64,000 bases of DNA from Yinghuangia soli (GTDB lineage: Bacteria > Actinomycetota > Actinomycetes > Streptomycetales > Streptomycetaceae): contig NZ_JAKFHA010000034.1 of NCBI RefSeq assembly GCF_021502675.1, positions 1 to 64,000 of the forward strand, read 5' to 3'. Positions within the stretch are counted from its first letter, which is position 1. The number at the start of each line of letters is the position of its first letter. Below the pieces are notes generated by a model. The model searched no databases. It had not been told where the DNA came from and saw nothing but the letters and a program-made list of their open reading frames with translations. Shown in pieces: positions 20,958 to 26,050 of the stretch. The translations under genes were made by a program, and so were the position numbers.

Positions 20958-23825
20958 TCACGCGGTTGCCGTGGCCTCGGCGGAGGGAAGGGCTGTGTCG
21001 GACCTGTCGGCCGGTGCGCTGCCGCTGCGCTCGATCGCGCGTTCGTCCGTGCCGAGGTAACTGGCGATGACCTTGGGGTCGTTGCGGACGTCGTCTGGCT
21101 GCCCCGAGGCGATGACGCGGCCGGTTTCCAGGCAGTAGACGCGGTCGGAGATGCCCATGATCAGCGGCATGTCGTGCTCGATGACCAGCATCGAGGCGCC
21201 CAGTTCGCGGCGGATCTCCTGGATGAGCGGGCCGAACGCCTCGGTCTCGCGCTGCGCGACGCCGGCGGTGGGTTCGTCCAGGCATAGCACGCGCGCGTCG
21301 AGGGCCAGCAGGCCGGCGAGTTCGACGATGCGCCGGGTGCCGGTGGACAGGTCGCCGACGAAAGCGTCCGCGTAGCGGCCGAGGCCGAGGAAGTCGACCA
21401 GGTCGTCGGCGTCCGCCCGCTTCGCGCGCTCACGGGTGAACGTGTGCGGCAGGTGCAGCGCGGTGGACAGCAGACTGGTCCGGCCGCGCGCCTCCAGGGC
21501 GATCTGCACGGTCTCCCGCACGGTGAGCTCAGGAAACAGGGTCGCGGCCTGGAACGTCCGGCCGAGGCCGAGCCGGGCGCGGGCGGCGGGTGCGGCCTTG
21601 CTGATGTCGCGGCCCAGCAGTTCGACGGTCCCGGTGGCGGTGACGAAGCCGCCGATGGCGTTCATCAGCGTCGACTTGCCGGCGCCGTTGGTGCCGATCA
21701 GGCCGATGATCTCGTTCGGGCGGACCTCGAGGGACACGCCGTCGACGGCGGTCTTGCCGCCGAATCGCACCCGTACGTCCGTCGTGGCCAGCACCGGCTG
21801 GTCGGCCGGCGGCGCCGGCCGAGTGGTCCGGGTGAGCCCGCGGGGTGCGGAGGTTGCGGTCTTCGGAGCGGGTTCGGCCCCGAGCCGTTTGTCGGCCCAG
21901 CCGAGCAGTGCGTCCCGGGCGCTGTACCCGATCTGGACGAGTCCGCCGGGGAAGTACAGCAGCAGGATCAGCAGACCCAGACTCGAGGTCAGCAGCGGCA
22001 CGAGTTCGTTGTCCGGCATGAAGGCCGGCAAACCGATCACCCAGAGCGCGCCGAGCACCGACCCGGACACCGACCCGAGTCCGCCGATCACCACGATGGC
22101 GACCAGGGTCAGCGAGTCCGGGCTGAGGAAGTACTTGTCGGCGTACGGGACCGACTGGACCGCTCCCGCCAGCAGCGCCCCGCCCAGACCGGCGATTCCA
22201 CCGGCGAGGGCGAAGGTGCGCAGCTTCACCCGCGCCGCAGCCACCGTGTACGCGGCGGCGGTGGCCGGGTTGTCCCGGACCCCGATGGTCGTGCGTCCCA
22301 CGCCGGTCCGGCGCAGCCGGGCCACCACGATGAGCACGACGACCAGTACAGCAAGGACGAGGTAGTAGTACGCCCGCTGTGTGGACACGTCGATGCCCAG
22401 GACCGTGCTGCGCGGGAACGAGGCGCTGCTCGTCCCCTCGTCGTGGAACACGTCGCGCCGGTACAGGTACTGCTCGCAGGCGACCGCGAACGCGAAGGTG
22501 CTGACCGCGAGCAGCAGTCCGCGGACCCGCAGTGCGCCCGCGCCGACCAGCGCGGCCAGCGCCGCGGTGAACAAGGACGCCACCAGCACCGCCGCCGGGA
22601 AGGTGAGCCCGCGGAACGCGTAGACCGTGTCGCCCACTTCCAGGCGCAGGCCGCGGTTGAGCGAGGCCGCGGTCAGTGCCCCGAGACCGGCGAACGCCAT
22701 CTGGCCGAGCGAGAGTTGGCCGGCCCAGCCGGTGAGGATCGTCACCGACGCTGCGCAGATCGCGTACGCCAGGATCACCGTGTAGAGCAGGTGCCGCGAC
22801 GGCTGGGTGACCAGCAGCGGCAGCACGATCGCGACGACGCCGAGCAGCAGCAGCCCGGACCGTGCGATGTGCCGGACCCACCACACCTGGCGCAGCCGCT
22901 CGGGGACGGGCTTGACCTTGGGAGCGAAGGAGAACGACGACGTCTCCGTGTCGCGGCCGCGGCTGACCGTGAAGACGGCGACCAGGACGACGACCAGGAC
23001 GACCAGGTCGCTCAAGCCGGGCTGGTCGAGCCAGTTGAACTGGACGAACGCCTGGAGCAGCCCCAGCCCGATGCCCGCCGCCAGTGCGATGCGGAAAGAC
23101 ACCATCCGGGCGATGACCGCGGCCGCAAGAGCGCGCAGGAGAGTGGTCGGCCCGAGCGTGGTGATCTGGGTCAGCGACTTGTTCTGCGCCGAGATGAGGA
23201 TCAGGCACAGCGTGGCCACCAGACCGGCGATCGCCCACACCGCGGTGGAGACGATCTTCGGGCTGATGCCCTGCAGCCGGGCGAGCTCCGGGTTGTCCGC
23301 GGAAGCCTTCACGGTCTTGCCGAGCACCGTGCGGCCGAGGAACCAGCTGAGCGCCAGGGCCGTCGCCGGGACGGCGATGAGGATGCTCAGCTGGGCGCTG
23401 TTGATCTCCAGATCGTCGAGCGGCGACCAGGTGCCGGTCCACGGAACCGGGTACTGCTCGGTGGTGTGGTCGTCGAGGTCCGGGTAGGCGGCCACGATGG
23501 TGAGTGCCAGCTGGGCGACGCCGATCGTGGCGACCAGGACGATCACCCGGGGCGCGTTGAACAGGCGGCGCACCACGGCCAGGTCCACGATGGCACCGAA
23601 GGCCGTTCCGGCGGCGAGCGCGACGACGAGCGCGGCCCAGTAGGGCACGTGGTAGCGCACGACCAGCAACGCGAACAGTACGGACCCGACCAGGCCCATA
23701 TTGGCGACCGCGAAGTTGATCACGCGCGACGAGCGGTGCACGAGCACGATGCCCATCGCCAGCAGGCCGATCACCAGGCCGGTGACCGCACCGTCGAACA
23801 GCAATTGAGTGGTGGGCATATCCAT
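20958..23825 (-). CDS. LivH-LivM-LivG fusion: two permease domains plus ATPase in one chain
   Basis: A 955-residue single polypeptide. Residues about 1-300 are a LivH-like permease, about 330-650 a LivM-like permease (ILTGWAGQLSLGQMAFAGLGA is the LivM signature), and about 690-930 a LivG-like ATPase with Walker A GTNGAGKST near 709-717, signature LSTGTRR near 825 and Walker B LCLDEPTAG near 848. In most bacteria these are three genes; two-way LivM-LivG fusions are known in actinobacteria, but the full three-part chain is unusual. No internal stop or frameshift is visible. It starts five bases after the upstream MFS-ATPase fusion, so the two proteins probably form one transporter with the lipoprotein at 19570. 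Confidence 0.9.
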   Translation of the reverse strand: MDMPTTQLLFDGAVTGLVIGLLAMGIVLVHRSSRVINFAVANMGLVGSVLFALLVVRYHVPYWAALVVALAAGTAFGAIVDLAVVRRLFNAPRVIVLVATIGVAQLALTIVAAYPDLDDHTTEQYPVPWTGTWSPLDDLEINSAQLSILIAVPATALALSWFLGRTVLGKTVKASADNPELARLQGISPKIVSTAVWAIAGLVATLCLILISAQNKSLTQITTLGPTTLLRALAAAVIARMVSFRIALAAGIGLGLLQAFVQFNWLDQPGLSDLVVLVVVLVAVFTVSRGRDTETSSFSFAPKVKPVPERLRQVWWVRHIARSGLLLLGVVAIVLPLLVTQPSRHLLYTVILAYAICAASVTILTGWAGQLSLGQMAFAGLGALTAASLNRGLRLEVGDTVYAFRGLTFPAAVLVASLFTAALAALVGAGALRVRGLLLAVSTFAFAVACEQYLYRRDVFHDEGTSSASFPRSTVLGIDVSTQRAYYYLVLAVLVVVLIVVARLRRTGVGRTTIGVRDNPATAAAYTVAAARVKLRTFALAGGIAGLGGALLAGAVQSVPYADKYFLSPDSLTLVAIVVIGGLGSVSGSVLGALWVIGLPAFMPDNELVPLLTSSLGLLILLLYFPGGLVQIGYSARDALLGWADKRLGAEPAPKTATSAPRGLTRTTRPAPPADQPVLATTDVRVRFGGKTAVDGVSLEVRPNEIIGLIGTNGAGKSTLMNAIGGFVTATGTVELLGRDISKAAPAARARLGLGRTFQAATLFPELTVRETVQIALEARGRTSLLSTALHLPHTFTRERAKRADADDLVDFLGLGRYADAFVGDLSTGTRRIVELAGLLALDARVLCLDEPTAGVAQRETEAFGPLIQEIRRELGASMLVIEHDMPLIMGISDRVYCLETGRVIASGQPDDVRNDPKVIASYLGTDERAIERSGSAPADRSDTALPSAEATATA

Positions 23826-26050: not shown

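Follow-up and report, generated by a model that had tools for sequence, protein, structure and literature searches.

A stretch of 64,000 nucleotides from Yinghuangia soli (contig NZ_JAKFHA010000034.1 of assembly GCF_021502675.1, positions 1 to 64,000, called the window below) carries an operon in which LivF, an ATPase of an ATP-binding cassette (ABC) importer, lies in one chain with a transporter of the major facilitator superfamily (MFS). The explanation that best accounts for our results, with a probability of roughly 0.6, is that the operon encodes a complete Liv/HAAT ABC importer whose LivF shares its chain with a Spinster-like MFS protein. The MFS-LivF chain, a second chain that joins LivH, LivM and LivG (LivHMG) and a lipoprotein substrate-binding protein (SBP) form one operon (Table 1); a gap of five bases, CGACG, lies between the end of MFS-LivF and the start of LivHMG, and the SBP begins 80 bases past the end of LivG. 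In Pfam searches, MFS_1 matched residues 131-468 and ABC_tran residues 569-711 of the MFS-LivF frame (P0001), and the LivHMG frame (P0002) contained BPD_transp_2 (PF02653) in two stretches, ABC_tran at 695-854 and BCA_ABC_TP_C. The SBP, searched as positions 19570-20874 without its Met, matched Peripla_BP_6 (PF13458, 5.3e-11). An earlier prediction made from the letters of the window alone had described this domain order, the sizes of the chains, the five-base gap and the downstream lipoprotein receptor, all of which the reading frames and Pfam bear out.

The GTG start of MFS-LivF is backed by homologous VSA/MSA stretches in loci L045, L047, L052 and L053. Both ATPases, as read from the sequence, have the Walker A motif GTNGAGKS and a Walker B motif with the catalytic Glu, and the ABC signature is MSGGQ in LivF and LSTGT in LivG. 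The switch position of LivF is occupied by Gln rather than His ("VEQ"), as is usual for LivF. Ordinary LivF proteins have the Walker B sequence DEPSLGLAP; that of the LivF halves is DELSLGLAP, which also occurs in kin lacking the MFS such as L142, and as this motif was a retrieval pattern its frequency is partly a matter of selection. Sequence searches of the PDB at an E value of 0.01 gave no match for the SBP or for LivH/LivM, and a scan of 26000-26480 for sigma-70 promoters and terminators found none.

Distribution and operon layouts of the fused chain

The original prediction had proposed establishing the phylogenetic spread of the fusion. Matches to the MFS part (E value of ≤1e-20) were present in 6 of 41 relatives, the source genome included. 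A search of the phylum gave matches in 20 of 396 genomes and one of the class in 30 of 394, two counts that take fused and unfused proteins together. All 14 matches among the 41 relatives sit in open frames of at least 746 aa, and the 13 rows of that search other than the window's own were fetched and are all fused. From the phylum search, 27 of the 39 rows outside the source genome were fetched, of which 24 are fused and 3 unfused (L067, L076 and L081). Among class matches with at least 34% identity, 23 of 24 are in frames of at least 743 aa, the remaining one being a 107-aa partial match (G545). The same search gave ten matches whose frames do not exceed 478 aa. Nine of them (L230-L238, L238 beginning at a contig end) were fetched and are all unfused, and the tenth is the partial match just mentioned. 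A search of the phylum with LivF gave 51 places in 21 of 396 genomes at an E value of ≤1e-68, from which 20 regions were fetched.

A scan of species genomes gave at least 593 matches to the pattern, of which 590 encode a relative, and the best 80 loci were kept. Of these 80, 77 come from records titled Actinomycetota, many of them Acidimicrobiia, and three (L091, L093 and L148) from records titled only "bacterium." They include Yinghuangia, Kribbella, Nonomuraea and a Nocardioidaceae bin, and the closest named genome among them is Yinghuangia seranimata (93%); an Embleya copy was found in a plasmid collection, in a record with no annotation at the locus. The 9.7-Mb source genome itself holds two more copies of MFS-LivF, with MFS identities of 85% and 57%. 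These two lie on contigs C14 and C39 (L045 and L046) in complete MFS-LivF / LivHMG operons, each with an SBP. Altogether 111 distinct MFS-LivF chains were gathered (115 with duplicates); they were collected by similarity and are hence a nonrandom sample. With near certainty, MFS-LivF and its Liv system are a conserved, real family and not one odd pair of genes. Two loci from records titled Bifidobacterium breve (L123 and L128) group by operon with other bins of the phylum that share the second layout described below, and they are possibly mislabeled metagenome bins.

When domains were located with hidden Markov models (HMMs) seeded from the window's own domains, two main layouts were found: MFS-LivF / LivHMG, as in the window (layout I), and LivHM / MFS-LivF-LivG (layout II). 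In a few loci LivG is a gene apart from MFS-LivF (L129 and L207, which are seemingly one contig, L135 and apparently L242), and in L084 LivG is divided between two frames. The MFS precedes LivF in 115 of 115 fused chains, duplicates included. More than 3.5 kb of sequence flanks each side of 81 distinct fused chains. In 80 of them LivH and LivM lie no more than 5 kb away on the same strand, and in 79 LivG does as well; in the exceptions, L074 and L135, the missing Liv part is elsewhere within the fetched stretch. An SBP scored above the limit within 5 kb at 50 of the 81 loci. The LivF motif patterns were found in nearly all of the 115 fused chains (Walker A in 109, signature in 112 and Walker B in 113), although many loci had been retrieved by two of these three motifs, so that the counts are partly due to selection.

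The MFS half and its spacing to LivF

An AlphaFold2 model of the window chain from position 25894 on, built with 62 kin, had a mean pLDDT of 86.3 and a pTM of 0.78, and its secondary structure was read as 12 transmembrane (TM) helices, a further helix at residues 419-442 and then the ATPase. The MFS half corresponds to about residues 5-430 of this 687-residue segment. ABC proteins took up the rows that Foldseek displayed for the complete model, and VIA-align was therefore used. For the MFS half, structures of SPNS2 led that comparison (Z 39.9-39.4; for 8rl8 at the top, Z 39.9, root mean square deviation [rmsd] 3.1 and 398 aligned residues), with SotB close behind (6kkl; Z 38.8, rmsd 2.8, 370 aligned). 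The best sequence match of the MFS half in the PDB was HnSpns (6e8j, E value of 4.5e-9), in the N-terminal half. By sequence match and modeled fold, the MFS half is thus Spinster-like.

Work on HnSpns (PMC9440201) gives a motif-A charge relay, Asp87-Arg91-Asp142, together with Asp41, Arg122, the TM4 protonation switch Glu129, Asp60 of an Asp-Arg bridge on the extracellular side of TM2 and the putative substrate residue Arg42. These positions were mapped onto the window through a sequence alignment and counted in sets of 37 and 63 rows. The relay is well kept, with D75 in 32/37 and 58/63 rows and both R79 and D130 in every row of the two sets. The acid of TM1 (Asp41) corresponds to window E30, where Asp or Glu occurs in 31/37 and 46/63 rows, and the Arg of TM4 (Arg122) corresponds to R110, which is Arg in 31/37 and 49/63. 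Between the window and Y. seranimata, the ratio of nonsynonymous to synonymous substitution rates (dN/dS) was 0.077 for the MFS half, close to the 0.079 of LivF, with LivH at 0.112, LivM at 0.094 and LivG at 0.102. The original prediction had allowed that the MFS half might be degenerate and dispensable. Degeneracy is rejected by this low dN/dS and by the two invariant residues of the motif-A relay; dispensability fares better, because Liv systems without the MFS exist (see below). Selection and the conservation of motif A together suggest that the MFS half probably still undergoes conformational cycling and acts on a substrate.

The length of the junction bears on how the two halves are held. 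If the MFS were loosely tethered, the MFS-LivF spacer should drift in length as other linkers do. Its length has a standard deviation (SD) of 4.3 (n = 110), with 102 of 110 spacers at 13-16 aa, and that between LivH and LivM, two permeases that must pack together, has an SD of 2.2 (n = 121). The LivF-LivG (n = 55), LivM-LivG (n = 66) and LivM-LivF (n = 11) spacers have SDs of 16.4, 18.0 and 24.4, respectively. An Asp after TM12 (Asp422) is invariant in 37/37 and 63/63 rows and lies 58-61 residues ahead of the Walker A motif in 36/37 and 56/63. The near-constant spacer favors a fixed complex over a loose tether, and with the conserved operons it makes it likely that the MFS is held in a fixed geometry beside the ABC core.

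MFS-free kin, working model and competing explanations

Close kin of the system that have no MFS occur in several forms: LivF / LivHMG (L142, L155, L157, L195, L196 and L198, plus L147, which is cut by a contig end), LivHM / LivFG (L146, L149, L152, L204 and L211), LivHM / LivGF (L209 and L214) and separate genes (L151, L197, L200-L203 and second operons in L069 and L156). The whole Liv core also occurs without an MFS in a single frame of 1253-1476 aa, LivHMFG, in L150, L158-L164, L208, L210 and L213. The MFS is truly absent from L142, where a frame read by eye as an amidohydrolase occupies its space; the LivF of this locus is 57% identical to that of the window and adjoins LivHMG and an SBP. 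A LivF tree of 129 rows (96 with the MFS and 33 MFS-free, near-copies removed) requires the MFS to have come or gone at least 7 times. An MFS tree of 122 rows, from which three long or odd rows had been removed, placed 102 fused and 12 unfused kin together in a single starred group that excludes 8 other MFS proteins, and it requires 5 changes between fused and solo forms. The two trees were built quickly and leave many forks open, and these unrooted counts have no gain or loss polarity. L237 and L238 each have an unfused MFS of the same family no more than a few kilobases from a Liv operon; it is encoded on the opposite strand, and the ATPases of that operon are MFS-free. The two MFS proteins are nearly identical and so count as one case, and this neighborhood ties the MFS and Liv modules even when they are unfused. 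The fetched stretches of the ten other unfused kin (L067, L076, L081 and L230-L236) contained no LivH/LivM match.

With LivH, LivM and LivG in one chain and the MFS and LivF in the other, there would be one MFS per ABC unit, and one complex would comprise five membrane-complex domains (two permease domains, two ATPases and one MFS) plus the lipoprotein receptor. In the working model that we prefer, and which we offer tentatively, the receptor would capture an amphipathic conjugate, which the ABC half would import, and the MFS half would move a related hydrophobic molecule, either the same ligand or the released aglycone and probably outward, by a pathway of its own. The MFS would then be a second, separately gated conduit within the importer complex, and direct use of ATP by it forms no part of this model. 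The original prediction had raised the idea of an ABC/MFS hybrid. That interpretation is partly supported: the idea of a hybrid agrees with our results, and co-assembly gains indirect support only, from the spacer lengths. An obligate hybrid of primary and secondary transport, in which the ATP cycle of LivF and LivG would drive import through LivH and LivM and also, via the helix between TM12 and LivF, set the conformation of the MFS so that one complex trades an imported conjugate for an exported product, is unlikely.

Several observations weigh against the favored explanation. The position of the Glu129 switch corresponds to window K117 and is Glu in only 0/37 and 1/63 rows, being mostly Lys, Gln, Thr or Arg; that of Asp60 corresponds to D49 and is Asp in only 14/37 and 29/63; and that of Arg42 corresponds to S31 and is Arg in only 12/37 and 23/63. 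This poor conservation makes proton coupling and substrate binding of the HnSpns type doubtful, and the energy coupling of the MFS half probably differs from that of HnSpns. Against four more distant copies the dN/dS of the MFS is 0.16-0.31, about twice that of LivF (0.07-0.16) and like that of LivH; the dN/dS values together point to an MFS that is selected as a working protein and diverges at the pace of a permease. The existence of MFS-free kin means that the ABC core can do without the MFS. The HMM for the MFS takes in the helix after TM12, so that the constant spacing falls partly inside the domain, and the stand-alone relative L081 has a similar helix, which makes the spacer argument indirect and not a proof.

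The chief rival, which we regard as rather unlikely, is that the MFS is a former transporter that now serves as a membrane sensor or anchor and tunes the importer, for example by trans-inhibition of uptake once substrate fills its inward-facing cavity. The residues found at the Glu129 position in most rows, the fixed spacer to the ATPase, which would suit signaling, and the MFS-free kin are all in keeping with such a role, and a fusion of an MFS with a sensor kinase is a named TCDB family, 2.A.1.34 (PMC3924187). Against it, the motif-A relay and the pair of TM1 acid and TM4 Arg are kept in most rows (the latter two in 46/63 and 49/63), as in a cycling transporter, and unfused kin of putative activity exist. 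It is still less probable that the fusion merely equalizes the production of two transporters serving one pathway, with no functional contact between them: the 33 MFS-free rows inside the same LivF tree and the unfused MFS near a Liv operon in L237 and L238 fit this, but co-production would need neither a constant spacer nor an MFS directly before LivF in both main layouts. An assembly or frameshift artefact joining adjacent genes, which the original prediction had named as a way in which the domains might prove to be separate, found no support and has practically no chance of being correct, being ruled out by 111 distinct fused chains in open frames, by the recurrence of such frames in independent isolate and metagenome assemblies and by low dN/dS in all domains.

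Probable cargo of the window copy and comparison with known systems

Table 1. Features of the window, with positions counted from its first nucleotide
Feature	Position	Strand	Basis
MFS-LivF fusion chain, 739 aa, GTG start	23831-26050	-	Reading frame and Pfam
Spinster-like MFS half	24605-25882	-	Pfam MFS_1 8.6e-33; HnSpns 6e8j; SPNS2 8rl8
Post-TM12 helix and spacer to LivF (model residues 419-447), contains Asp422	24554-24640	-	Alignment, model, spacer lengths
LivF ATPase half; Walker A GTNGAGKST, signature MSGGQ, Walker B LLIDEL	23834-24559	-	Sequence; ABC_tran 1.1e-25; 1ji0 Z 33.7
LivH-LivM-LivG fusion chain, 955 aa	20958-23825	-	Reading frame, Pfam, NCBIfam
Lipoprotein SBP, Peripla_BP_6, lipobox-like VATGC	19570-20877	-	Sequence and Pfam
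LacI-type palindrome, upstream of MFS-LivF operon	26220-26233	.	Pattern scan; core kept in Y. seranimata L085
Second LacI-type palindrome, 5' end of rhamnosidase frame	26426-26439	.	Pattern scan
Alpha-L-rhamnosidase, divergent from MFS-LivF operon	26411-29146	+	Bac_rhamnosid6H 4.1e-98
LacI-family regulator, divergent from rhaI	4159-5199	-	Gene assignment
Palindrome ahead of likely RhaI ATG (~5394)	5341-5352	.	Pattern scan
L-rhamnose isomerase RhaI	5313-6560 (frame, not exact start)	+	TIGR02635 over cutoff
Rhamnulose-1-P aldolase/dehydrogenase RhaD	6254-8713 (frame, not exact start)	+	TIGR02632 over cutoff
Rhamnulokinase-like kinase	8771-10276 (frame, not exact start)	+	TIGR02627, 452.5 bits, under cutoff 527.95

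Two near-identical 14-base palindromes lie between the MFS-LivF operon and the rhamnosidase, and in the whole genome the 14-base form, which was derived from these two sites, matched with zero mismatches only there. With at most one mismatch allowed, the window has 5 sites of the core palindrome (10 strand matches), compared with a mean of 0.26 and a maximum of 3 in shuffled sequences. Among the 5 are a site upstream of rhaI, next to a LacI gene, and one ahead of another MFS gene. Y. seranimata retains both palindromes plus a third. The N terminus of the rhamnosidase, read by eye, has no obvious signal peptide, so that rhamnosides would enter whole. The palindromes and the neighboring genes somewhat favor the view that this copy takes up rhamnosyl conjugates that are cleaved inside the cell. 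Rhamnosides were among the ligands guessed at in the original prediction, and that guess gains support from the shared LacI-type palindromes and the rhamnose pathway in the window. On the other side, a rhamnosidase neighbor was seen among the fetched loci only in L047 and L085, which represent a single Y. seranimata locus. Elsewhere in these loci only L107 and L160 had the palindrome, and it was found at no other fused gene. The cargo assignment therefore applies to this copy only.

Further palindromes were seen in the window. One of LacI type at 18518-18531 precedes a DHA2/UriT-like MFS gene (16925-18427) by about 90 bases, and a palindrome at 11429 in L085 lies near the same GntR-type regulator as this site; a related one, TGAAGCGGTTCA, is at 45758-45769, near a gene at 45767-46759. 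A tally of neighbors made for clues to cargo covered 110 of 171 flanking frames shorter than 900 aa, under a rough GC3 rule, at 22 loci (the 110 from 19 of them) and had no control set; it gave SDR 6, AMP-binding 5, luciferase-like 4 and ECH 3, among others, and nothing was concluded from it.

Primary, ATP-driven transporters and secondary, gradient-driven transporters are usually handled as separate classes. A conserved chain of a motor ATPase and a whole secondary transporter, with a near-constant spacer and its ABC partners adjacent, makes mechanical coupling between them testable, and the MFS-bearing, MFS-free and unfused kin offer ready-made comparisons. Acidimicrobiia and other Actinomycetota also have the system, and there it is otherwise liable to be annotated as two unrelated transporters or as an amino acid importer. 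Among the papers listed in literature searches we recognized none describing a fusion of an MFS protein with an ABC ATPase, though most subscription journals and TCDB were outside the search and a prior description is possible.

The Liv/HAAT importer (TC 3.A.1.4) consists of LivFGHM and LivJ/K. The window operon resembles it in carrying the complete set of four core domains together with a receptor of the Peripla_BP_6 type and differs in that four genes are condensed to two and LivF bears an extra MFS of 12 TM helices. The best NCBIfam matches were the LivF and LivG models NF008626 and NF008449, and the window proteins score under the cutoffs of these equivalogs (183.9 versus 441 bits and 210.4 versus 362 bits, respectively). 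The MFS half resembles Spinster proteins (HnSpns and human SPNS2/SPNS1) in its closest PDB sequence match, its top fold matches, the residues of the motif-A relay and the acid of TM1 and Arg of TM4, but it is fused to an ABC ATPase and is without the Glu129 switch of HnSpns. The MFS-free compact Liv systems (LivF / LivHMG, LivHM / LivFG and LivHMFG) are close kin of the window system by LivF but have no MFS. In the sensor kinase-MFS family TC 2.A.1.34 (PMC3924187), an MFS is likewise joined to another functional module; the partner there is a kinase, whereas here it is the ATPase of a full ABC importer.

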